DNA of 64,000 nt, taken from Paracyclopina nana (lineage: Eukaryota > Arthropoda > Copepoda > Cyclopoida > Cyclopettidae). Location of the stretch: assembly GCA_019096065.1 (NCBI GenBank), contig JAGUCH010000006.1:3430001-3494000 (forward strand), in the 5' to 3' direction. Each line of letters opens with the position of its first letter. Position 1 is the first letter of the stretch. Below, piece by piece: positions 25,877 to 57,290 of this stretch. Below the pieces are notes generated by a model that saw only the letters and a list, made by a program, of their open reading frames with translations, was not told where the DNA came from and ran no database searches. The position numbers were made by a program, and so were the translations under genes.

Positions 25877-27405
25877 CCCAACCAGGAAAAATTTTCCCGT
25901 GCTGTATCGCTTTTCGCGAAACAAGAACTACTTTTCGATCCGACAAGGTTTACCAAGATAGTGCATCGAAAAGTAGTATAATGGTGAGACCACTTTTGAG
26001 TACATTTGATGTGCAAAGTAATGTCAGCCTAATTTCCTTAAAGTAGTCTCAAACTTGTATTTGTTTTCAACAAATATATTTTTTCCCCTTATATTAGGTT
26101 TTGATGATCCTTCTGCAAATGGGTTTTGGCACAAGGAGTTGCAGATGTCAGAGTGATCGGAAGAGTTCTTTTTCTACAATTCTTGGGACTACTTTAGAGC
26201 AATTCGTGATTGAAAAATGAAAGTTAAAATTGCTCATGAACTTTGTTTACAATTTTGTCCATTTCCGTTTCCCCTTGGCCACTACGAGCTCGGCGCTGCC
26301 GAAATCGACTCGGGAGCCGGCCAATTTTGGATTCGAATTAGACAAGCTCAGGGGGCTTGGACTTGGCAAAAACTCAGGCTTGAAGAGTACGCGGGCTCGG
26401 CGCTGCTGAAATCAACTCGGAGCCGGCGATTTTGGACTACCGGAAAGACAAGTTTGGATTCAAATAAGACAAGCTCGATCAGGGGCCGAGCTCAACGCTG
26501 CCGAAATCAACTCGAAGAAGTGGGCCATTTTGGACTACGGGAAAGACAAGTTTGGATTCGAATAAGGCAGGCTCTGGGGCCTTGGACTTTGGCAAAAACT
26601 CAGGCTTGGCTTGGAGACTACGAGCTCGGCGCTGCGCTGCCGAAATCGACTCGGGAGCCGGCAATTTTCGACTATGGGAAAGACAAGTTTGGATTCGAAT
26701 AAGACAAGCCTTGGACTACGAGCTCGGCGCTGCTGAAATCAACTCGAAGAAGCGGGCCGTTTTGGATGCGGGAAAGACAAGTTTGGACCAAGGTTTTGAA
26801 GGTATTGTTGCCAAGGACGAGCATCCCGGATGAGCTGCTGACTGGTTCGTCCTCCTCGGAGACTGAACCCTCGACTTCTAAGCAATGAATGCATTGTTGC
26901 AGATGAAATATTATATTAACCATTTCGAGTGTACATAACTAAGTGCAAATTTTATTGTGATAATAACAGCAACAAATAAACATAAATGGCAGCCAAAAAT
27001 GCATCCTCGTGAGGCCATGCAGACGCCGTACTGAGGTCGTGGCCGGAATGACTGTTTTGTGGCAACTACTAGTTTTCGACCTTCACCACTCATATTTCAG
27101 TTCGGTACTAATTGTTTTCGATACCAACCATTCCAAACCCAACAAAGAATGTAATAGTCAAAAAACAAGCAGCACCGGAGCCACTGCAGCAGTTGATCGA
27201 CATCTCCAGGCATGCTGACAAGTTTTTGAGGCTGAAAGCATAAAAAAAATGTCAGCATATGAGACTTCGCATTAACAAGGCATGCTGACTAGTTTGGCAC
27301 ATACTGAGAGATGTTTGCTAAGAACTAGTCGTAGATGAGCATCGAAAACTACTACTAGTTTTAGGTCCAACAGGAACAATTGAAACTTCATTTTTCCTGG
27401 TTGGG
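25877..27405. mobile_element. Non-autonomous DNA transposon, CCCAAC ends, 2-bp TG target duplication
   Basis: The left end CCCAACCAGGAAAAAT at 25877 is matched inverted at the right end (ATTTTTCCTGGTTGGG, ending at 27405). The dinucleotide TG flanks both sides (25875-25876 and 27406-27407). Removing the element and one TG restores the exon-4 frame shared with two paralogues, which fixes the boundaries. Inside is a GC-rich block of five imperfect units of about 100 bp (26280-26780), each carrying gagctcggcgctgc and cgaaatcaactcg. No transposase frame is present. The first six bases of the ends and the 2-bp duplication match the autonomous element at 49-57 kb. Confidence 0.88.
26280..26780. repeat. 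Internal tandem array of the 1.5 kb transposon
   Basis: Five degenerate units of roughly 90-130 bp. Each has GAGCTC(GG/AA)CGCTG, a GAAATC(G/A)ACTCG word, then a TTTTGGA-like stretch and GACAAG(C/T)T. The block is distinctly more GC-rich than its surroundings. The open frames here are by-products of the repeat. Confidence 0.8.
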
Positions 27406-28377
27406 TGACTCCAACAATTATTTACACAACTAAAGATGCTATAGGCAATTTCAAACCTTCTGAAAGAAATTGCTATGATACTTTTGAAGCAAATTTGACT
27501 TACCTTACTCATGAAAATGGTTATCATTACAGCATGAATAATTGCTTATTTCAAAAAACTATTGAGCGAATTGTTTGGGATTGCAAATGCCGACCTTTTT
27601 TTCACAAACGCCATGAACATCCTGTTCTGGAAAAATTGCCTATTTGTACAGGAGTGCAATTGACATGCATGCATACAAAGCTTTCTAATATTTCACTTGG
27701 AGAGAAAAACAGTGCAGTAATTTTAGATGAAAATCAAGGTGACTTATCCAAAATCAGCAAATACTCCAAGCCTGTTCAAGTTGAATGCCTGCCTTCATGT
27801 CTTATTCAAGATAACAGCATTCAATTATCCTCTTTAATTTATCCAAACCCTAATTTTTTCTTCACAAGATCATTTTGTGAAACAGCCTGTAAACTTCGCC
27901 AGAGGACTTGTCAAAACCCAAACAGAAAATTCTTCTTAGATATAAGTTATCCAGATTTGTGCAAAGTTTTAGATGCCAATAATGTATATTTTGGAAATGG
28001 ATTTAGTTGTGAGAGATGGCCTGATGTGTACTTTGAGAGCAACAATACAGTTGTAAATGCTGAGCTGAAAGAAGCAGTATTTCAATATGCATCTGAAAAT
28101 CTTGCTAGGGTAAAGGTGTTACTGACAAACCCATATGTCACCAAGTTTAGGAGGGATCAAGCTATGACCTTTACAAACTATGTGGCAAATACTGGAGGAC
28201 TATTAGGATTGTGCCTTGGCTTTAGCTTAATTTCTCTGCTTGAAATACTTTATCACTTCTTGTTAATTGTTTTGGCGTGACATTCAATGTAAAAATTATA
28301 AAGTGAACCCATAATTACTGCCAATAAGAATAAATGTATATTTGCAGTTCTTCAGAGAGTTGAGCTCTTTAAACTTT

Positions 28378-30837: not shown

Positions 30838-31788
30838 TCACTTGTCCACTCTTCTGTAGCAGTAGCTCCCATCCCTGTGCACGACTCGCAGCAACAGGTT
30901 CCTGTTCAGCGACATAACTCCCATCGCATGCACCCGAGCCACCATCCTCTTGAAAACATGCAATTGCACCAGATCCAGCGACTTGTGCATTGGGTAGTGG
31001 TGGCCATAGCTATTGCAGACTTTGCACTTCGTCACATAGTTCGGACATGCAGCGACTTCGTGGTTTTCTGAATTGCAGACCATGCACCTTTTCTTTGGCT
31101 TGTTTGTGCAGTCTTTGCCGTGATGTGTTTTGCTTCCACACTTTCTACATGGATGTGGTGTGAACACTCTCGCTCCTTCGTCGTCCAGTTCTCTTGGAAG
31201 TACAATCGAGTCTATTTGCTCATCCACGATGTCTTCTCCGTGCCACTCCTGCACTTGGCTGAGCAACTCCGTCTCCCAATCATCCACGCAGTTATTTGGC
31301 ACATTCTTGACGTACCATTTCTCCAACAGTATTTCCTTGTCAAAGTCCTTGAAACTTTCGACTATTTCTCTTTCGCTGGTGTAGACGGGATCAGGTCGCT
31401 TCAGTATCTCCAGCCTGGTGTCGTCCACTGCCTTCTCGATGCTACCGGGGCTATCGAGAAGGCCTTTGTAGACTCTAATCATTTTTCCACCCATCAGTGA
31501 CCCTCTATTTTTCAGTGCAGCCATGATGAATACCATATATCCTCTGCAGTCGTCTTCTGGGCCTGCACCTGCTGCTCTCGCCATAAGTGCTCCCACCAGC
31601 ATGAGTAGTGCATGTGGCAGAAATTGGTCGTATCTGTCGTAGTACACTGTTCTACTGTCGTATTGATCGACCTCCATCGCTCGGTATTCCTTTCTCCAGT
31701 CCGTTTTTCCAGCTCTCCACTGCACGCCCATCCATCTGCAGGCTTCCTCTTTCGATGTTCTTGGGTCTACTTTGTCGAAACAGGACAT
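30838..31788 (-). CDS. Gag-like CCHC zinc-knuckle protein, single exon
   Basis: 316 aa without introns. The N-terminal two thirds is a helical, charged domain of the kind seen in gag-like proteins, with no motif I recognise. The C-terminal region has a clean zinc knuckle CRKCGSKTHHGKDC (C-X2-C-X4-H-X4-C). A second follows (CMVCNSENHEVAAC), and then a third variant (CKVCNSYGHHYPMH) with His in place of the last Cys. Such arrays bind single-stranded nucleic acid. No reverse transcriptase, protease or long terminal repeats are visible nearby. It is therefore either a lone gag remnant, a domesticated gag, or a non-viral host protein. The frame is intact and more GC-rich than its AT-rich surroundings, which suggests either constraint or recent arrival. 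Confidence 0.6.
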   Translation of the reverse strand: MSCFDKVDPRTSKEEACRWMGVQWRAGKTDWRKEYRAMEVDQYDSRTVYYDRYDQFLPHALLMLVGALMARAAGAGPEDDCRGYMVFIMAALKNRGSLMGGKMIRVYKGLLDSPGSIEKAVDDTRLEILKRPDPVYTSEREIVESFKDFDKEILLEKWYVKNVPNNCVDDWETELLSQVQEWHGEDIVDEQIDSIVLPRELDDEGARVFTPHPCRKCGSKTHHGKDCTNKPKKRCMVCNSENHEVAACPNYVTKCKVCNSYGHHYPMHKSLDLVQLHVFKRMVARVHAMGVMSLNRNLLLRVVHRDGSYCYRRVDK

Positions 31789-32689: not shown

Positions 32690-34608
32690 ATGGAAAGCAG
32701 GAATTATTTTGAAAGAAGATTTGAACTCTTCTGCAAGGTGTCAGATAATTGAAATACTTACTTTTATCGATAGAAACTTTCTGTTTATGTATCCGTCATT
32801 CAGGAGACTTCTTTGCATGGTTGGGGTTACTTGGTTAAACCACAACCAAGAATTTGTCAGTACGTGTGGCTAGTTATTATTTTAGCTATGTCTGGAGTTG
32901 GAATAACATTTGTGGCAATCAATACTCAAAACTACATGAATTCCTTTATTGTAACTACAATTGACACAACTACTGGTTCATTAAAGGTATAATAAATTCC
33001 TGGTTACCATAAATTATCAGTTTAACGTTGTTTTTGCTAAACAGGAAGTCTATTTTCCATCAATAACAGTTTGCAACCTAAATCAAGTTGAGGCATCATT
33101 CCTTAAGAAGATTGGAATTTATGGAAATTTGTCTCAAACGAATGCTTTGCTTGATGAGTTCATTGATGGTGCATTGTCTGATAAGAGAAATGTGCTTGAC
33201 AGTATAAAATGGCTTAATTCAACAGATCTATTGCAGAATTATTCTCTCACAGAACACTCTGTCCAGAAATGCAATAACATGTTTATTGAGGCTAGCTTTA
33301 AGGGAAAATCTGTCTTCTGGAACAATATAAACGAGTCAATTGGTCCCTTTTTATCTTCAACTGACTATGGTAAATGTTGCTTTTTTAATGGAATTGTTAG
33401 CTTGAATGTTTGGCCCAATGGAACTTCATTAGCAGAAGTAAAAACTTAGCTAAATGAGAACATGAATAAGAGTCATAAATATTACTTCCAATTAGCAATA
33501 TCACTCAGGAGTTCCGATTGGAGCTGAAAATGGAGAGAAAGGAGGCATGTCTTTGCTCCTAGATGTTGAGAAATTCAACTATGCTCATCATGGAATTGAC
33601 TCAGTTGGATTCAAAGTCTCTGTACAAGATCATAGAGATAAGCCATGGATAGGGCACAATGCTGTATCCATTAGTCCAGGAACTGAAACCCAAATACTGG
33701 TAACTCCTGAAATAAGTTTCACAACTCAAGCTGCAATTGAAAATTTTGCCCCAACTGAGAGAAATTGCTACAATGATTTTGAGGCAAACTTGACCTACTT
33801 ACCTTATGAATATGGCTATCATTACAGCCTGAACAACTGTTTGTTTCAAAAAGTTTTTCAGCAAATAATTTGGGAGTGTAGATGCATTCCTGACATTCAA
33901 GAATATTATGACGATCCTATCTTAGATATGCCTTATTGTAGCGGATTGCAATTAAAATGCATGCTAACCAAGCTTCATAGCTTAGATAGTGGAATGAAGG
34001 AAAATAATGATACGCTTAATATTCAGAGAGATCTTTTCAATATGAGCATCTTTGCAAAGGATGACGGCATAAAATGCTTACCCTCATGCTTGATTCAAGA
34101 TAACAAAATCCAATTGTCCTCATTAGTTTACCCTCACAAGAATAACTTTTTCTATAGAAGATCTTTTTGTGAAACAGCCAGTAAAATTTATCTAGCAACT
34201 TGTGCAGTGCCAGAAAAAAAACACTTTCTAGACATTAGCTTTCCAAATTTATGCGATATTTTGGCAGCAAATGAGAGATACTTTCGAAATAAGGAAAATT
34301 GTGAAAACTGGCCTAGTACTTATTTTCAGCAAGATAATGGCAGCAAAAATTCTGAATTGGTAGAAGCTCTGCATCACTATGCTTCAAAAAATCTTGCTAG
34401 GGTAAAGATTATGCTGAGAAACCCTTACGTAACAAAGTATAAGAGAGATCAAGCCATAACTTTTACTAGTTATGTGGCAAATACAGGAGGCCTGCTAGGA
34501 CTATGCCTTGGCCTAAGTTCTATTTCTTTAGTTGAAATTATGTACAACTTACTAATCTATGTTCCGGACTTGATAGTTCACCTGAAAAATGTGCTATCAA
34601 AGAAATAA
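32690..34608 (+). CDS. Pickpocket-type ENaC/degenerin channel, copy 2 (intact)
   Basis: Exons 32690-32737, 32804-32986, 33045-33437 and 33496-34608 join in phase (578 aa). The short first exon ends FELFCK and runs into ETSLHGWGYL, the conserved cytosolic gating region with its His-Gly pair. TM1 is WLVIILAMSGVGITFVAINT. The extracellular domain carries many Cys (RNCYNDFEANLTYLPYE, NNCLFQKVFQQIIWECRC, FCETASKIYLATC). TM2 has NTGGLLGLCLGLSSISLVEI with the G-x-S selectivity filter. The product is a plasma-membrane, probably sodium-selective, trimer subunit; ligand or stimulus is unknown. Exon structure is identical to copies 1 and 3, which points to tandem duplication. The first exon is supported by phase and the family motif only. 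Confidence 0.9.
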
Positions 34609-40128: not shown

Positions 40129-42314
40129 ATGGAAAGCTTTGAAAATATTGACTCTCAGAAATGCTGTTCTTACGTCAATAAGGCCAATTTGGATAATGCC
40201 TATTCTAACAACAATGGAGAAATTAGCTTTGTATGTGCTTGCTTCAATTATTAGTTTATTTAGGGAGGGCAGGTTATACATTTTTTCATTCCCCATAATT
40301 GTTCTTTAACTTCATCATGATGGGCATTATGAACCTCAGAAAAAGTAGAAAACTGTCCAAAAATGGTTTCAAAATAAGACTTGAGACTTTCTGCCAGGTT
40401 TAAAGTAAGATATGACATAAAGCAATTATATTGACCCATCAATCATTTAGGAGACCTCTCTGCATGGTTGGAGATATTTGGTTAAATCACAGCCTAGAAT
40501 AATCTGCCTTCTTTGGTTTATTGCTATTTTGGCAATGTCTGGGCTCGGAATTGTATTTGTAGTTATCAACACACAAGCATATTTGAATTCATTCATTGTA
40601 ACAACAATAGAGTCTACAACTGCACCATTAGATGTAACGCAATTGCAAATTCCTTGCATTAACTTTTGGTGTTAAAATGTATTTCTTCCACAGGAAGTTA
40701 TATTTCCAACATTATTAGTTTGCAACATAAATCAAGTAGAGTCATCATTTCTGAAACAAATAGGAATCCATGGAAATTTATCTCAAACAAATGCATTATT
40801 TCATGAATTCATTGATGGCATTAAAGACGGATTGCCTCCGGAGAGAAGAAAAATCCTTGACACAATTTCGTGGCTAAATTCCTCAGATCCTTGGCATAAA
40901 GAGCCTTTGAAGTTTGCTTCTAGTCAGAAATGTCATCACATGTTTATTAAGGCAACCTTTAAGAAGAAATCCATATTTTGGAGGGAGATGAACCAATCTA
41001 TAGGGCCAATTACATTTGGAACGGATTACGGTATCTGCTGCTCATTCAATGGTGAAATTAATATGAAAGTTTGGCCACTAGGAGCTACTGAAGTTGAGGT
41101 AAGTACTTAGCAGCAACATCATCAAGTTATCATGACACATATTCATAATTCACATTTTTTAGAAATATCACAATGGTGTTCCAAATGGTGCAAAAAATGG
41201 AGAAAAGAGAGGTATGACAGTTCTCATTGATGTTGAAAAATTCAATTATGCTCATCATGGCAACAGTGCTTTTGGATTTAAAGTCTCTATCCAGGATCAT
41301 AGAGATAAACCAGTAGTAGGCCACACTGGAATTTCAATTAGGCCAGGAACAGAATCACAAATAACTGTCACTCCTGAAATCATATTCACTACCCAACAAG
41401 CTATTGATAATTTTGAACCGACTGAGAGAAACTGTTATCAAGATTTTGAGGCAAACTTGACTTTCTTTCCATATGAAAAAGGTTACCATTACAGCTTGAA
41501 CAATTGCTTGTTTCATAAAGCAATTGAGCACATAGTTTGGAAATGCCAATGTTGGCCTAATTTTTACAAACATGCTATTCTGCCAGCGTTGCCTATTTGT
41601 ACAGGAAAGCAACTTAGATGCATGCAATCTAGGCTATCTAGTATGGCTATTGGCGAGGAAGAATCACATAAGGATGCTTTGAACATTGGCATCAGCATGC
41701 AGGCATTGGGAGAGAGGGAAAAAGCCATGCTATCTAGTAAGGGTCCGTTCAGAATTGGTAACCTTATTGAGCCATCTGATATTGAATGCCTACCATCCTG
41801 CAAGATTCAAGACAACAGAATCCAATTGTCGAGTTTAGGTTACCCTAACAAGATTAACTTTTTCTATGAAAGGTCATTTTGTGAAACGGCTAGTAAGGTG
41901 TTGCAAGTGACTTGTCAACTTCCTGAACGAAAATATTTTTTGGATGCAAGTTTTCCAGATTTGTGCACAATTTTGGCAGCAAATGAACGATACTTTGCTA
42001 ATCATAGCAGTTGCGAAAAATGGCCTGAATTGTACTTTCATGATAACAATAGCCTTGAAGACTCAGAATTGATAAATGCTGTGTATGAATATGCATCAGA
42101 AAATCTTGCAAGAGTTAAAGTCATGATGAGAAATCCATATATGACCAAATATAAGAGAGACCAAGCCATGACTTTTACAAGCTATGTGGCCAATACTGGA
42201 GGCTTACTTGGATTATGCCTTGGTCTAAGCTTTATTTCTATGCTTGAAATTATCTACCATTTCTTTTTCTATTTCATAGGTTTGATATTTAATACGTTGA
42301 TCAATTGTCATTGA
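40129..42314 (+). CDS. Pickpocket-type ENaC/degenerin channel, copy 3 (intact)
   Basis: Exons 40129-40230, 40451-40633, 40694-41098 and 41163-42314 join in phase to give 613 aa. Exon 1 ends EISF and continues ETSLHGWRYL. TM1 is ICLLWFIAILAMSGLGIVFV. The Cys-rich extracellular domain includes RNCYQDFEANLTFFPYE, EHIVWKCQCWPNF and SFCETASKVLQVTC. It also holds an extra loop of about 15 residues (IGISMQALGEREKAML) absent from copies 1 and 2. TM2 and filter: NTGGLLGLCLGLSFISMLEI. The product is a sodium-channel subunit at the plasma membrane. It is the longest member of the cluster; different first exons may mark functional divergence between paralogues. Confidence 0.92.
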
Positions 42315-42504: not shown

Positions 42505-42590
42505 TCCCTCGAGCCGGATTCGAACCAGCGACCTAAGGATATCTGACCATCATCTACAGTCCTCCGCTCTACCAACTGAGCTATCGAGGG
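42505..42590 (-). tRNA. trnY-GTA: tRNA-Tyr (GTA), with 13-bp intron
   Basis: Read on the minus strand from 42590 it has acceptor stem CCCTCGA pairing with TCGAGGG, D-arm TAGCTCAGTTGGTAGAGC, and T-loop GGTTCGAATCC. The anticodon GTA is at 42557-42555. Between position 37 and the anticodon 3' stem (42553-42541) lies a 13-bp intron, as expected for eukaryotic tRNA-Tyr. Internal A and B box promoters are intact. The discriminator base is A at 42505; CCA is not encoded, as normal in eukaryotes. Confidence 0.97.
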
Positions 42591-48794: not shown

Positions 48795-49043
48795 ATTTAG
48801 CATAGCTGACTTGGATCTCAGCCGACTCAAATCTCAGCTGATTTGTATCTCAGCTGAGTCGGATCTCATTTCTCAACAGACCAAGATCTCAATAAATCAG
48901 CTAACTCAGTTCACAGCGATCTCAGCTCTCATTTATCAATAAATGTAGCTCCTTGATGACTCAGACCTCTCATAATTGATTCAATAGAGACTCAGCTCAA
49001 AGTTGACTCAGTTCTCAACGGACTCAATTCTGTTCTCAGATGA
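48795..49043. repeat. CTCAG-type tandem array, left part
   Basis: Degenerate units with atctcagctga and ctcaattc-like words pass into two clean 16-bp units (ctcagctcaaagttga, ctcagttctcaacgga) at 48991-49022. The same units resume in the same orientation at 57156, so the array has been split by the transposon. Confidence 0.8.
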
Positions 49044-49796
49044 CCCAACTACGCAAATATTTTTTAGGCTGGAACTTGATCTCGTGTGCCAGCCCCTTGA
49101 TCTTAATGTCAGCGAGACTCATTGAGAACCACTCTCTCACAGCTAGCTATATCACGCAAGAAATCTTAATTTTAACACAGAGTGACGTAATCAAGTATTA
49201 CATCTCGGCTGAAAGCACACATGTGATTGTGATAAGATTTTCTCATTACTTATAGTACTTTATAAGCGCTACATCTCACATGAACTTTATTTCGCTCGTT
49301 AAACTGTACCTTAATCTTTACAGATAAACACGTTGAGTGATCCTTAAGAATCTCGAGTGCAAAATATGCGAGGAAAGCACCAAAAGCACACTTTGGCCAC
49401 AGTGAAATTGGCAAATTTGGTTTGCGATGAAGAGATCGTCACTTTATGCTGTTAGATATCACTTAACGTACGCGTAATTACTGCTGCTAAATGGCAATTA
49501 AGGCAAAAATACAACTTATTTGATCTAAGTTGACGGCACGAAGTTTGTTCTTTATTGTCTTCCCTGAATTGTCGCACAAAATGTCATAAGTTTCCAAAAC
49601 ATGAGTAGTAGTAAGTATTACACACAAGAAATAGTCGTGTTACATTAAGCATAGAGAAAATTATCATAATTGTCACATGTTCGCGCACGAGAGAGCTGGA
49701 ATTTGCATCAGCTATAAAACAAAGCCTATGTTGCAATGACGATTGCAAACAAACTGCTAACTTTTTCTAGGACATGTTTCACAAGATCAAGGAGTT

Positions 49797-52757
49797 TTAG
49801 GTAAACATGGCATCGAGGGGAACTGCAATGATGACTCTTTTCCCATGGTCGATAACAGCTTTGCCGACAACATCCTGCTTATCAACGATAAGGCTTGCAT
49901 CCTCCAATCCAAAGACTCTTTCAATTCCAGCGTAGCGCCAAACCAAGTGTGGGAAATCTCGCGTGTGAAAGGGCTTTGTCACATATCGCTTGCAGAAGAA
50001 AGAATCGCCAATACTGGACAGGACTTTGTAGAAATGCCGTTTGTTCGTGTAGATCAAGTTGTCAGTGGTTCTCTTGAAATCTTCATACGTGTACCTGACA
50101 AGATTGTCGCAGTCGTGATTCTGTTTGATGCCTCTGAACAATCGGTTGATCACTTGCTTCGGGAAGCTTGGCGTTTGCGGCTTCATAAACTTCTTGACTA
50201 AACCAAGGTTGCCTTCAAATTGCAAGGCACTGAGTGGAGGCATGCGAGAGAAACCTCTGATTTCCAAAATGTGTGAAAATTCATGCACATTCCATGTGCA
50301 ATTTTCAACTCCAAAGGTTTTCTCGAATGCAACGTAGAATTTCTCCATCGTTTTATTCAGCCTGCACTTCTCAAATACTTCTTGAAAGAGTGCGTTGTCA
50401 AACAGCACAGCCCTGACAATGAAGCAGAATGTCAGCCAAACCTCATGATGTCCCGAGTAGCAAGACTTCGATTCGAACCCATCACCAAAAGCAAAGAGGC
50501 CAATGACAACAATTGACAGGTACTCTTGCGTCTTGTATTGGGGCAAGGATGACTGCATTGAACGCGTGTGACGATTGAATTCGCGTGGAATCTTCATTTC
50601 GATCCATCTCTTGTCAAATTCTGTCATGATCTCCAATTGGGCAGCCGAGAAGTTTTGCTGGTTCTTTCCAAGAGACAACATCAGTCGGATCAGTAGCTTA
50701 GAGCATCCTCCAAAGTTGTGCATGGGATCTAAGACAAACTGCGTCGCCATGTTGAATTCCGGAATGCAAAAGAGTGGAGAAACGCCCATCATTCCATGCA
50801 ATTCATCTTCCGTCATGTTTTCAAAGCCACGCTCAGTAATTGCTTCAGAAGTTGAGCGCCACCAAAAGTTGGTGCGTCTTTCCTCATTCATGGAATCGCT
50901 TGGAAAAACAGTGCGACGGCCAATTCTTACTCCTTTAACATGACAGAACTCGCAAGAGTAAGCGCCATTAAATTGCTTTAAGCACTTCAATTTTGCGCGA
51001 ACAGGCCCGTCACCGATCACCCTTCGAATGCCCAAGCCGCAAGCTAGAATATCATCTACGAAACCTCGCAAGATTTTGACTGGGGTCAATCCACTTTGGC
51101 GGCGGTACACGTGCATTCCAATGACGTACACCATCTTGCAAGGAGGAATTCTGCAAGACATCACGTTGAGCTGGTCCACGCCAGATTTTGAACAAGGCAA
51201 GCCATCAAAAAATACATCAAGTTTGCGTGATTGCTTGTAGTTGTTGCAGCCAACACAGTTTTCGTGCACATACATGGCGTGGTTCCAAACATCAGCAATG
51301 TCGACCTTAGCATATTCGGAAATCTTTGCCCACTTGTTACGCGGAAACTGGCCTTTTGGATAAACCTTGGACTCGATCTTGACTACTTCACCCGTTTCAA
51401 GGTTAAGAAACTCGTAGGCCATTTGAACTTCTGGATACTTTTGCTCAAATCTCTTCTTGCTTGACCTGAGTCCACGTAGTTGTCGATCAGGCATGTAGGC
51501 TCTAAGCAATTCCCACATGTCATTTTCTTGGCCTGCAGTCATGCCTCGTTGTTGCGAGATAGTGGTGAACAACTCATAGAGACTCTTGTTCCTCTCAGAC
51601 AAGGTTCCAAGCTTCGATTCCTTCCGCAAATACCTCATCACTGACGTTGCTGTGAGGCGATAGTTGGCACCAAATACTTCAACGAAGTCATCGCTAAAGT
51701 CATCGCCAAAGCCTTCACCTTTGTCAATGAGAAATTCATCCGCTACCGAGTCCGATTGACCAACATCAGGACTTGCTGCCGCTCCAAGATGAGCTAAGTC
51801 GTCATTGATCTTCAGTGTCTCTTGCGAGAGAATGTCTTGCATGTTGCCAACGCATTCTTCTTCTTCTTCATTGGCAAAACATTGAGAATGGTCTTCATTG
51901 CTAACAAACTCATCGTCAACTTCATGAACCAAAGGCTCCTCGGGCAGATTTTCATTTGCAGCATTGGCACCCTCGTCCTCGGCTTCATCTTCAGAAATCA
52001 ACCAGTCATTGATCCACTCATCGACATCATCAAATACAGTTTCGTTGTCGCTGCTCTCTGGGTGATCGTCATCCGTGATTTTCAACTTAGTCAAGTCAAA
52101 ATCGATTAGTTGTTCGCCTCGGTACATAGCTCCTTCAGTCAATGGTACAATGGACTCGGTTGATATTGTCATCAAGTTGTGCCCAGACTCGTTCGAGCTA
52201 TCAAAGGTGTTGACTGACACATTGCTGCTAAGCTCAACAGTTCCAGATGTAAGCGACAAAGATGGAGTCGGAGTTGGCAAAGGGGACGGCGTCCTAGCCA
52301 TTTCCAGAGGTGACCTTGATCCATTGTTGCTCGAAACATTCGCTGAAGCTGTGCTCCTCTCGCTTTCATCTTGAGTGACAGAGGAGTCGTTTGACCCATT
52401 GTCCATGTCAGAATCAGAGTTAGACACGTCAGCTTCCAAGGCCTGGTCGACCACATTTTGGCAGGCTAGCAATTCTCCCTCAGTTTTGAACAAGTTCGTT
52501 ATTGGATTGCCCTCGTCTTCGTCCCAATCACGATTCCTGTGGAAAGATGTAATGAATAATTACATAGACATGAGTTGGCGAGCAATGTAAAAAACTTACA
52601 TGAATGGCTCGTTCCTCGTCAAGCGATCCAAACGAACAACATTTGCGTGCACATTGAAGCGGATGTCACTCAAACCTGTGCTCAAGGACGATAAAACGCG
52701 TGATTGTCTTCGTCGAGAGCTTGAGCTCATCTTTGGCCGTTTTCTTACAGGCGCCAT
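49797..52757 (-). CDS. Transposase, animal EnSpm/CACTA type
   Basis: Exons 52757-52600 and 52536-49797 give 965 aa from a well-placed ATG (gaaATGG). A further exon-like stretch upstream (52946-52846) is open in frame and may be 5'UTR or extra N-terminus. The first third is acidic and Ser-rich. The core follows the order seen in animal members of this family: DVFFDGLPCSKSG (about residue 496), VIGDGPVRAKLKC (about 565), CEFCHVKGV (about 582). Next come the hallmark FVLDPMHNFGGCSKLL (about 655), with the D-x-MH motif, and a C-terminal WNVHEFSHIL region. The Asp residues in GDGP and LDPMH are candidates for the DDE catalytic set. It should bind the element ends and cut and rejoin DNA in the nucleus. 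Confidence 0.85.
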
Positions 52758-52946
52758 TTCACGAGAAGGCGGTTCACGAGGCTAAATGCATAAGCAGTAT
52801 TAAGTATTTGAAGGGAAAAATGAAATTAGCGCTTCAGAAACTTACTGGTGTACCGAACTCTTCTCGCGTAGTAAATCTTGCAGACCAAAAAATGGTGAAT
52901 TCAGTTTGTCGTCTTTCTTGCAAAAATTCAAACTTGCGAGAGTTGG

Positions 52947-53296
52947 CTAAAGTGTAACAGGAAGCGTCGAGCTGAGTATTTCCCGTTTAGCTTTGCATTT
53001 CAAACTTATTGCGTCTTACATAAAATTCACGTCAATCATGCAAGAATACGCGAGATCAAGGTAGTGACCAATCGCAAAACTGAGACAGCGACGCTGCGAC
53101 GCAGTGACTCAGCAGCTACTGAGACTTTCTGTTAACTCGGTGTATAGCCGCTTGGTTACGCGTGTTTTGTTGTCACAACAATTAAGTGACAACTACAAGA
53201 ATAACCGTTAGTTGAATTTTTCAACGTAGCTATTTTCCGCCAAATCACAAAGCGTCAAATTTTCGAATTGTTCAGCCGTGCCCGAAATTATTCAAA
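52947..53296. promoter_or_regulatory. Divergent promoter region inside the transposon
   Basis: About 350 bp between the upstream transposase exon and the ATG of the plus-strand gene. The two genes point away from each other, so both promoters must lie here or in adjacent introns. No TATA box is obvious. Confidence 0.45.
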
Positions 53297-56200
53297 ATGA
53301 CGACCGAGGGATCCGAGAAGAAGAAGAGGCCTGGCGTGTACGATAGGATTATTGTGGCGATCGTGGAGGATGAGCCAGTCTTTTCGGCGCTTCCCATGAC
53401 GTTTATCACTCAAGATGGAAAGTCGATCGCCGACATTTTCTACCCGTTTGAAGTTCAAAAGCGTTTGAACAATTTGAACCGGAAGATCTCCCACTCAATC
53501 CTTCTGGACAATCAGGACAAGACCATTTGCGTGTTTACACGCATAGAAAAGGGTAATATCTTTAAAGATGTATTACATTTTCTTAGTTAACGACAGCATC
53601 AATTTCAGGAATGCCTCAGTACCGCGTCGACAAGGCCATCCGAGAGTTGAACGAGGACTTCGTCGCTAATTTGAAGGACAGCAGAAAGGCCACTTATGAC
53701 GAAATGGTTGAGAACTGGTATGAGAAGTTCATCATTGACTACGACTACAGGAAGAAGAACCTGAAGACGAACAACTTTGAGATGGTGCCGTTTGAGCAAA
53801 AGTGGATGCGAGGTAAAGGCAAGAGTCAAGCCAACATTGACAGCATCATGACCGATGAAGCCTCCGCTAGCGATGCAGCTCCCGACAAAGGGCCATCTGT
53901 GGCGATGATGAAGAAGGCAAGGACTGCTTTGCCTAGTCAAGACTCCTCGACTGCTGCACACGACATGCCACTGAGAACTTCTCAAAGGATTCGTGGTAAT
54001 GCACCTGTTTTGCCAACGCTTCGCCAAGAAAGCGTCGAGTCTGACAAGGAGCCTCCATCCTCCCAGGACTCTGTCGTAGAGCCGGCCAACATTGGCTTCA
54101 TTGACGATTCCTCTCAAGAAGAATTAGAGACGGAGGCAGTCCAAGCTGTTGAGGATATAACCTCTGCATTTGCCAGCCAATCCTCCAGTCAGCCTGTCCT
54201 GACATCGCCAGTCGCCAATGTCCCAATGACATTGCCAAGTCCACCAGTCTCTTTATTGTCCACTACTGCTAGTCAACCTGCGACAACTGCACCAGTTGCT
54301 GTATCGAGCTATTTATCGTCGGTAGTCACTGCCGAAACTTTAAACGTTCTTGCGAGATCCACAGCTCCAGAGCTGTCTTCATCGTCGATGCATGTGCCTG
54401 CTACCTCCGCCGCTCCAGTTACTCAAGCAGCGTTCGTTTCAACCTCAATTGGTACTTTGCCTCCAGTTGGTCTCGGTAGATCAAGCCTCAGCGCTTTCAG
54501 TGGCACTGTTGGCCAAGAAGTTCTTGGCTCATTGATGTTGGTGAGACGCCACATTGCTCTGCCTTAAATTAATGTCATCTAATGCAATAATGTTTCATAG
54601 GATGTAGCTACTCCTGCCACGACGCAGTTTGTGACGAAGGAATTCCTCGACCAAAAATTGACCGATCTCTTCTTGGCATTGCGAGAAGCAGCCAAGGCTG
54701 ACATGAAAGAGATCAATGATGCTCGCGCAGGAGAGATGGCGGCTGTCTTAAAGAAAATTGACAACAAATTTGGCAAAGTTAACGTAAGTATTGCAATATT
54801 TATGAAGTTCTTAAGATTATTTGCCATAAACATTGCTTTTTATTGTAGGATGTGAAGAAAATTTGCGAGGACATTAACAGCCGAACCATCAACCTGTCTA
54901 ATAAGACTTATGCGCCGAGTCCACTGAAGACTTTTCGAGGCAACATGGAGCTGAAATCCAAAGGACGCTCAATCTTATTCAGACCGACACCATTCAATCG
55001 AATGGGGAAAGCATGCGACGTATATTTCTCCTTCCCTTTTGTACAAGTAAGTTTGTTTGCAGGCAATGTCCAAATTTCTTGTGAGAAACATTTTGCATTC
55101 ATCGTAGGAGCAATGCGCCGACCTCATTGGCCCATATCTCAACAAGATGCAATTAGTTGGGATGAATTCCATCCTTGCCAAGACTCTCCTCCACACTCTC
55201 TTTACTCCGTTGGCTAGGTCTCACATGATCTATGGCAAGAACAAGAAGTAGGTTCTTCTTTTCCTCTTTTGATTTTTTGGTCATAAGCAAATGTCACAAT
55301 TTGCATATTTCATATTTTAGTTCCACGAAAATGCAGTATTTCTACAAACGCCCGATTCCGCCCGGTCTGTTCACAATGGTGGACAAGAATCTCATTTTGA
55401 AGATCCAAGATGCTTTGGCACTTGCTCCAGGAGCGGATCTTTCTCACGTGTCGGAGATGCGAGATCCATGCGCATCAGCGTTTAACATTGATCGCACAGC
55501 ATTCATCAATTGTGCGATCAAAAATACGGCGACTGTGCAGGAAGCTGCTGAGGCCTGCGTTGACATGGATTTTGAGTTCTACAATTGGAACAAGCACACG
55601 CTGCCGACTCATAAGAAGAGCAAGTTGTTGTCGCGTGAAAAACACCTGGAAGGCATCTTGTCCAGAGGTGAAATGATTGCCGCCACCAAGAGCACCGAGG
55701 TGAACCCTGGACCATTTCCTCCGAAAGATCGCATCTTTGATGAGATGAAGGGCAAGTGCGTTTATGAGACAGATGATTGCAAGGAGATCATAAAGCTTGT
55801 CTGTGCTAGCGCACACGTAATGGGCGTAGACTACAAAAATCTTCAAGTGGATTTCAACGAGAAAATTCCTGAGGTAAAGATCTTGTAAGATAAAGTTGTA
55901 ACCAATTCATGCAACTTTCACACTTTCAGCTGCCTGCACTCTTTGCCGAGGTGATTGACGAAATTGAAGACATCAACGCTCTCGTACGCCTCTACTCAGC
56001 AGATGCTGCTGATTACCTGCCCGACGTTGTCATACCACAGGAACCTAAGAGGAAGCGAGCTACTCCTAGCAAGAGGCCAAGAGATGTCTTCCCTTTTCAT
56101 GGCGTTGCAAAAAGGACTCGAAGGGAATTGCAAGAATCGTTCGAGAGAGAAATGGCTGACGAGGAAGTCGAGGTGCCACATGTCATCGAAGATAGAGGCC

Positions 56201-56568
56201 AAAATGAGGAAGTGGCTGGACCATCAGGCCGTCAATTGGTAAGCATTAAAAGTTCAGGGGCACTTATTATCGACATGTAAACAATGGTGTACTTATGTAG
56301 GAGGATCCAAATCTTATGTCTGACTATGAAGACGAAGATGACGAGTACATCCCTCGTCCTGGCCCCGGGCTCAGTGTGGTGCAAGGACAACGTGCAACCT
56401 CTTACGACCCCCCAGTGAGTCCTTCACACTCCTCTACATTTTTTTTGCAACCTTTATTCAAAACAATGTCCTTTTTAGGCTGAAGCCACGTTGGCCCCCA
56501 GGCTCCCGGATGGATTCATGACCGACTCCTCCTCAGGCAAGTCCGGATCTGCAACTCCCAAGAACTAG
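53297..56568 (+). CDS. Second transposon-encoded protein, unrecognised, nine exons
   Basis: Exons 53297-53552, 53609-54540, 54601-54783, 54849-55046, 55108-55247, 55321-55873, 55930-56238, 56301-56414 and 56479-56568 all have GT-AG junctions and matching phases, giving 924 aa. Parts: an N-terminal folded region (GVYDRIIVAIVEDEPVF), then a charged block rich in Tyr and Lys. A long Ser/Thr/Pro/Ala-rich linker and a probable coiled coil (KEFLDQKLTDLFLALREAAK) follow. A second folded region contains FYKRPIPPGLFTMVDKN. After it come a basic nuclear-localisation-like patch (PKRKRATPSKRPR) and an acidic tail. I recognise no domain. Its position opposite the transposase suggests an accessory DNA-binding or regulatory role, as with TnpA-like partners in plant elements, but this is inference. 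Confidence 0.85.
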
Positions 56569-57153
56569 AAGAGAAAAAGCAAGAGTCAATTCGATTTCTT
56601 CAGTAACACATGAATTTTCTGGCTATTGCGATACATGATATTTTTTTGGCTCAATATAATATATGAATTATTATCTTGTTTAACATACATTAGCAATGCT
56701 TCGTGAACTAAGCATATGCAGGTTCGAGGCCTAGGTGTGAGGCCTAGGGACGGGCCCAAACGGGGCAGGCCCTGTACGGTGCAGGGTGTGTATCTCAATA
56801 AATGCATGAGTTATATCTTGTCAGTAAAAGACAAGAAAATATGAAACAATGTCGTATCGTTCATAACAAATCTATCTTGCGTAATGTAGCTCTATTTCTT
56901 GCATGCTACAACGACGAAGGCTTGCGCCCAGAAATGGCGCACTTACTGCATCTCGGTCCTTTCACTACCTTTATTGTGTGTTTATCATACGAGATTCACT
57001 AAAGCGTTAAAGGATGATTCTTACCGGCTAGGCTTACTTTACAGCCACTTTATTGGCACATAAGAGAGAGTAAAATTTAAGATACAGTCAAGAAATTCAT
57101 GCAAGAATCTCGCCCCAATCTTAACGTCGGAAATTTTTTTTTGCGTAGTTGGG

Positions 57154-57290
57154 GACTCAGTTCTCAACGGACTCAGCTCAAAGTTGACTCAGTTCTCAAC
57201 GGACTCAATTCTCAACGGGCTCAGTTCTCAACGGGCTCAGTTCTGAATGGGCTTAGCCCCCATCTGACTGTTAACGACTAACTCAGTTCT
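57154..57290. repeat. 16-bp CTCAG tandem array, right part
   Basis: Six consecutive 16-bp units from 57156 to 57251 (ctcagttctcaacgga, ctcagctcaaagttga, ctcagttctcaacgga, ctcaattctcaacggg and two more), then degenerate sequence. Same strand and phase as the left part. Confidence 0.92.

Follow-up and report, generated by a model that had tools for sequence, protein, structure and literature searches.

A two-gene transposon with CCC ends

The DNA analyzed here is a 64,000-nucleotide stretch of the genome of the cyclopoid copepod Paracyclopina nana (contig JAGUCH010000006.1, positions 3,430,001 to 3,494,000, forward strand), hereafter the window. Near its right-hand side lies a transposon of 8110 bp with inverted ends of the form CCC..GGG, a 2-bp target duplication and two divergently transcribed genes, one for a transposase and one for a predicted partner protein (Table 1). 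The original prediction for this locus, made from the sequence alone, had described an intact two-gene element of the CACTA/EnSpm group with 14-bp inverted ends flanked by GA, and ends, duplication and both open genes were indeed present in the window copy at the positions given for them. The transposase is an open frame of 965 amino acids (aa) as described, with the addition of an intron that divides it into two exons, and the expected landmarks FDGLP, GDGP and DxMH are there, the last as DPMH. The divergent partner gene is predicted to have nine exons (53297-56569, plus strand) and to encode 924 aa; all eight introns run from GT to AG and the reading frame is continuous throughout, in line with the in-phase junctions proposed for it. 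Minisatellites of period 16 flank the element at 48804-48868 and 57153-57244 (right-hand unit GGACTCAGTTCTCAAC), and the insertion site apparently lies inside such an array, at the GA of GACTCAG.

Copies of the window family

In the genome of 92 Mb, the exact 14-mer CCCAACTACGCAAA has eight matches and the backwards pattern used as a control has one. All eight pair up in inverted orientation, over distances of 1.7-8.1 kb, and delimit four copies. Two are full, namely the window copy and a second one at C6:2486451-2494561 (8111 bp), and two are short, at C2:9098074-9099863 (1790 bp) and C7:777468-779206 (1739 bp). The full copies are 99.9% identical and differ at 11 places in 8110 bp, namely by ten substitutions and a 1-bp insertion that disrupts the transposase frame of the second copy. 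The flanking DNA differs among the four copies, and their duplications are GA for the window copy and TA for each of the other three. According to the original prediction, a lack of other copies with these ends, or true ends at a CACTG motif, would have spoken against it; instead, the search for further full copies returned one, together with the two short ones, and none of the copy comparisons made supports ends at CACTG. Such motifs as true ends are ruled out by the copy breakpoints. The near-identity of the full copies is consistent with a family that may still be active.

The short copies (L006 and L007, 94% identical) retain some 237 bp at the left and some 295 bp at the right; between these ends lies a middle of about 1 kb that is unlike the full element and consists of imperfect tandem repeats. 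Both copies are thus internally replaced and have the anatomy of non-autonomous derivatives. The C2 copy shows many small insertions relative to the C7 copy.

The transposase is related to EnSpm-like proteins

The catalytic core of the transposase contains D497, D562, C581/C584, H804/H808 and E827 (D151, D216, C235/C238, H458/H462 and E481 in core numbering). These catalytic and metal-site columns (D, D, CxxC, HxxxH, E), taken from the published CMCT motif definition (PMC12730594), are invariant in all 22 rows of alignment A1, from which six of 27 relative cores were excluded as damaged or cut (L023, L040) or as near duplicates (L026, L033, L036, L044). AlphaFold models the core with a mean predicted local distance difference test (pLDDT) score of 85.8 and a predicted template modeling (pTM) score of 0.80. 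The top matches of this model in Foldseek and VIA are RAG1, BbRAGL and HzTransib, with 8-14% identity in the matched rows; no EnSpm-labelled structure is among the structure matches listed.

A hidden Markov model check had been proposed for both proteins and was carried out against Pfam, where neither had a match near a curated cut-off. Across the 22 cores, the best Pfam results were scattered single matches, one of which was to rve, the integrase core (E 0.06). The transposase sequence found no match in the PDB and, as a single query, none among 5.8 billion proteins. The 22-sequence profile from A1 retrieved three matches from the same 5.8 billion proteins. All three are EnSpm-like and share the blocks DGxPxxKS, (G/C)DxPxR, CERC, FVLDxxH, NVHxxxH and SAxxFE, over the reach of each. 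In an unrooted FastTree tree of 27 rows, these outside proteins group with two distant relatives (support 0.96).

Relatives across the genome share CCC ends

A genome search with the window transposase listed 53 matches corresponding to 50 genes, both full copies included. The other listed transposases are 30-57% identical and mostly open over 650-1060 aa, with an internal stop in two of the 53 rows. Together with a search using the distant EnSpm-like protein P0002, at least 91 transposase genes were found, all such gene counts being lower bounds.

Ends of relatives were placed by breakpoints between copies and by pattern matches in single copies. The nearest relatives (L023, L024, L025/L026) end in CCCCACTACG, with a CACTA motif 3 bp inside the end (CCC-CACTACG); L031/L033 end in CCCCACTACC and L043/L044 in CCCCACTTC, and further left ends include CCCCACAAAC, CCCCACCAA and similar sequences. 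Eight relatives with both ends read measure 7.67-8.12 kb and have 2-bp duplications without exception (AC, AT, TA, CA, AT, AA, TT, GG), as does one short element (CG); with the four copies of the window family added, the duplication is 2 bp in every element with both flanks read (13 of 13). Of 15 matches to the 14-mer CCCCACTACGCAAA (control, 0), all but one form inverted pairs, seven in number. At C9:2017027-2026163, a 9.1-kb pair of CCCCACTACGCAAA ends encloses no listed transposase match. A more distant clade has the ends CCCAGCGAACCC, with 63 matches (control, 2). Nine of these are unpaired, and the rest form 27 inverted pairs of neighbouring matches, six short and 21 long (7.9-8.8 kb). 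Among the long pairs, 18 of 21 enclose a listed transposase gene at a distance of 450-890 bp from one of the ends. The three full-length pairs lacking one (C1:369499-377601, C7:2952627-2960682, C7:5766966-5775028) possibly hold genes missed among the matches listed.

From these surveys it follows that every placed end of the CACTA relatives in this genome begins with CCC. The window family starts with CCCAAC, a one-base variant of CCCCAC, and not with the CACTA of plant-type CACTA/EnSpm elements. CCC ends are also found in piggyBac elements, whose TTAA duplication is absent here, the duplications being 2 bp long and varied.

A divergent partner gene is linked to the transposases

Residues 490-788 of the partner matched 141 exon-sized places in the genome. 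For 40 of the 50 close transposase genes, the opposite strand carried a partner match no more than 9 kb upstream; no gene had one upstream on the same strand, and two had one downstream on either strand. Over both transposase searches, 58 of the 91 listed genes and 58 of 86 partner clusters were paired divergently, where random placement expects 0.3. The conservation claimed for the partner extends to a family linked to the transposase in many relatives of the same genome. Some 43 kb past the window element, at C6:3530148-3532082, is a transposase relative of 32% identity for which no partner was detected.

Across 12 related loci, partner similarity breaks near residue 457 in four and near residue 755 in seven, matching introns of the model. 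It is uninterrupted at residue 755 in L055 and L056 and at residue 457 in L059; hence not every partner intron is common to all loci. The partner had no match in Pfam or the PDB, and its residues 440-800 had none among the 5.8 billion proteins.

Table 1. Positions of the transposon, its ends and its two predicted genes in the window
Feature	Position	Strand	Remarks
Complete transposon	49044..57153	.	8110 bp; exact 14-bp inverted ends and a second copy of 8111 bp with the same ends in different flanks
Target-site duplication GA, left	49042..49043	.	
Target-site duplication GA, right	57154..57155	.	
Left terminal inverted repeat CCCAACTACGCAAA	49044..49057	+	
Right terminal inverted repeat, reverse complement of CCCAACTACGCAAA	57140..57153	-	
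Left end retained in two short copies, candidate cis-acting end	49044..49280	+	about 237 bp, 92-93% identical
Right end retained in two short copies, candidate cis-acting end	56859..57153	+	about 295 bp, 88% identical
Transposase exon 1	52600..52757	-	
Transposase exon 2	49797..52536	-	stop at 49797-49799; 965 aa in all
Catalytic core, residues 347-965	49800..51656	-	
Divergent intergenic region	52758..53296	.	539 bp, between both start codons
Partner exon 1	53297..53552	+	
Partner exon 2, Ser/Pro-rich middle	53609..54540	+	
Partner exon 3, charged; by eye, perhaps a coiled coil	54601..54783	+	
Partner exon 4, conserved region A	54849..55046	+	
Partner exon 5, conserved region A continued	55108..55247	+	
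Partner exon 6, conserved region B	55321..55873	+	
Partner exon 7	55930..56238	+	
Partner exon 8	56301..56414	+	
Partner exon 9, holds stop	56479..56569	+	924 aa in all

Elsewhere in the window, three similar tandem open reading frames (27405-28280, 33547-34608 and 41214-42314) resemble DEG/ENaC sodium channel genes by eye, a frame with CCHC zinc knuckles (30838-31788, minus strand) is perhaps gag-like or a retroelement remnant, again by eye, and an 86-bp tRNA gene is located at 42505-42590 (minus strand).

Interpretation

Taken together, the CCC ends, the 2-bp duplications, the near-identical copies, the open DDE-type transposase with CMC zinc-site motifs, the RAG1/Transib-like predicted core and the divergent second gene point to an autonomous cut-and-paste transposon that has moved recently and is of the TRC type known from animals, that is, a CCC-ended CACTA/EnSpm relative within the CMC clade. 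Judging from these sequence features, we give this reading a probability of about 85%. From its motifs, predicted core and profile matches, the transposase probably belongs with CACTA/EnSpm within the CMC(T) clade. The original assignment to CACTA/EnSpm is supported, as is the picture of an intact two-gene DNA transposon, now with full copies of 99.9% identity and a conserved partner.

The transposase would excise the element and insert it again with a 2-bp stagger, and the short copies may have been moved in trans by way of their retained ends of about 240 and 295 bp. From its position, the 539-bp intergenic region is probably a two-way promoter. For the partner, the linkage, the conservation, the possible coiled coil and basic stretches seen by eye put the chance of a TNPA-like accessory protein at about one half; such a protein would bind subterminal DNA or the transposase and act in synapsis or in the control of expression.

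Several results weigh against this reading as a whole or in part. A search with joined flanks for an empty site matched only the two occupied flanks. Between the full copies, the partner shows four amino-acid changes and no silent ones, and the transposase one amino-acid change and two silent ones besides the frameshift in the second copy; with such counts, purifying selection is invisible at this scale. Pfam Transposase_21 (PF02992), which SmTRC1 of Schistosoma mansoni carries (PMC1636069), has no match to the window transposase at E <= 1. It likewise had none in the two of the three outside EnSpm-like proteins that were scanned, and a genome-wide search with it gave zero matches for query and control alike and is hence uninformative. 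Unpaired genes number 33 of 91 transposases and 28 of 86 partner clusters, where in some cases one side is perhaps too diverged or absent from the listing. The partner is poorly modeled (pLDDT 49.5), so any function proposed for it is a conjecture based on its location and conservation. The window copy, L023 and L024 all carry the motif ATCTCG at +36 and again 47-52 bp before the right end. The commonest subterminal 6-mer of the window copy was, however, matched by 42 of 200 Markov shuffles, and those of L023, L024, L025, L031 and L043 by 7, 13, 17, 8 and 43 of 200, poly-A being the commonest in four of these five. As no subterminal array stands clearly above the shuffles, the analogy with TNPA lacks its usual DNA site.

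Among other explanations, the one that fares best concerns the partner, which could be a captured host gene or passenger dispensable for transposition. It contains no known domain, a third or so of the listed transposase genes (the 33 of 91) have no recognizable partner, and fungal transposons do carry passengers such as TET/JBP dioxygenases (PMC12730594). Yet the same divergent linkage persists even where the transposases are only about 30% identical, whereas a functionless single capture should decay. Moreover, the long CCCAGCGAACCC elements share their size and the position of their transposase, and while a partner match was detected in just four of the 21, the remaining ones have room for a diverged partner. 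We therefore regard a passenger as unlikely, though it deserves to be kept in mind. Considerably less probable is a separate superfamily outside CACTA with a RAG1-like DDE core, nearer for example to Transib, Mirage or Chapaev. The ends are not CACTA, Pfam is silent near its cut-offs and RAG1 is the best structural match, albeit in a list of matches that holds no EnSpm-labelled structure; against this, the proteins retrieved with the A1 profile are EnSpm-like and share the motif blocks listed above, and CCC ends with 2-bp duplications are the published TRC signature. The ends and duplication length of Transib and RAG1 are also unlike those of the window element, Transib duplications being 5 bp long. 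That the element is dead, and intact by chance or through a recent segmental duplication, is very improbable: exact 14-mer ends are confined to four copies and the second full copy is frameshifted, but the DNA around the copies is unrelated, each copy has a 2-bp duplication of its own, and similarity between copies does not continue past the termini.

Returning to the TRC-type transposon, we advance with some reserve, and at less than even odds, the further idea that the CCC-ended CACTA relatives of this 92-Mb genome, with their many intact diverged elements, form a two-component lineage in which the partner, a member of a previously undescribed protein family, is required for transposition and corresponds, independently, to TNPA of plants. 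Much less is known about CACTA relatives in animals than about those in plants, and an intact copy, dozens of diverged open relatives and a conserved second gene would allow a test of whether two proteins are needed, as in En/Spm. The CCC-CACTACG ends bear on the question left open by DeMarco et al., whether CCC and CACTA ends are related. The element is otherwise ordinary for its group, and the linked partner family is the part worth study.

Comparison with known systems

The TRC relatives of CACTA elements in Schistosoma, Tribolium and Aedes were described in 2006 as having CCC ends and 2-bp duplications (PMC1636069), and an EnSpm element of Hydra was so described again (PMC4298943), contrary to the premise of the original prediction that animal CACTA-type ends are normally CACTG or CACTA. 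The step from unusual ends to a new lineage consequently fails, and an uncharacterized lineage holds only as a sub-lineage distinguished by CCCCAC or CCCAAC ends and an unmatched linked partner. In CMCT elements generally, CA..TG ends are found in most cases and are usual but not required (PMC12730594), and ten Daphnia CACTA families were classified by their ends (PMC2884549).

The window element shares with TRC elements the terminal inverted repeat starting with CCC, the 2-bp duplication (7 of 14 SmTRC1 copies), a CACTA-related transposase and the presence of truncated copies (PMC1636069). The Tribolium end is CCCTAGTAGCACCG.. and that of Aedes aegypti CCCAGTCAAC; the Aedes element, at 9.2 kb, is also similar in size (PMC1636069). 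SmTRC1 differs in its length of about 4.5-4.7 kb, in its one main open reading frame with several alternatively spliced transcripts, in its Transposase_21 domain, which the window transposase does not match, and in that no divergent partner gene is described in the sections consulted (PMC1636069). The Hydra element Spongebob_HMa / EnSpm-4N1_HM, termed TRC, has a 2-bp duplication and the terminal inverted repeat CCCAGCCAACATTGAC (PMC4298943), much like CCCAGCGAACCC, the ends of the more distant clade of P. nana, whereas the window family ends in CCCAACTACG and its nearest relatives in CCCCACTACG. That study did not recover the exact Hydra transposase (PMC4298943).

What goes beyond the published TRC work is, as far as sequence comparison can tell, the linked divergent partner, a conserved family without a match in Pfam, the PDB or 5.8 billion proteins. 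A survey of titles and abstracts found no divergent partner gene in animal CACTA elements, nor is one described in the available portions of PMC1636069, PMC4298943, PMC2884549, PMC12730594, PMC4592977 and PMC4007536. Given the earlier reports on TRC and on Sly1-1 of Neurospora crassa, such ends were already known, and a two-gene plan has been described before in a fungus. Sly1-1 (11.5 kb) combines a CMC transposase containing C(2)C and H(3)H with a second gene of unknown function, and the Chaetomium homologues of this pair are adjacent and divergently transcribed (PMC4592977). It differs in being fungal and in its duplication of at least three bases (PMC4592977), and the comparison is one of gene plan, not of partner homology. 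Plant En/Spm elements belong to the same clade, have DDE motifs and likewise encode two proteins, TNPA and TNPD (PMC1636069), but they have CACTA ends and 3-bp duplications (PMC4158355), and their proteins are spliced from one transcription unit, whereas the window element carries two divergent genes.

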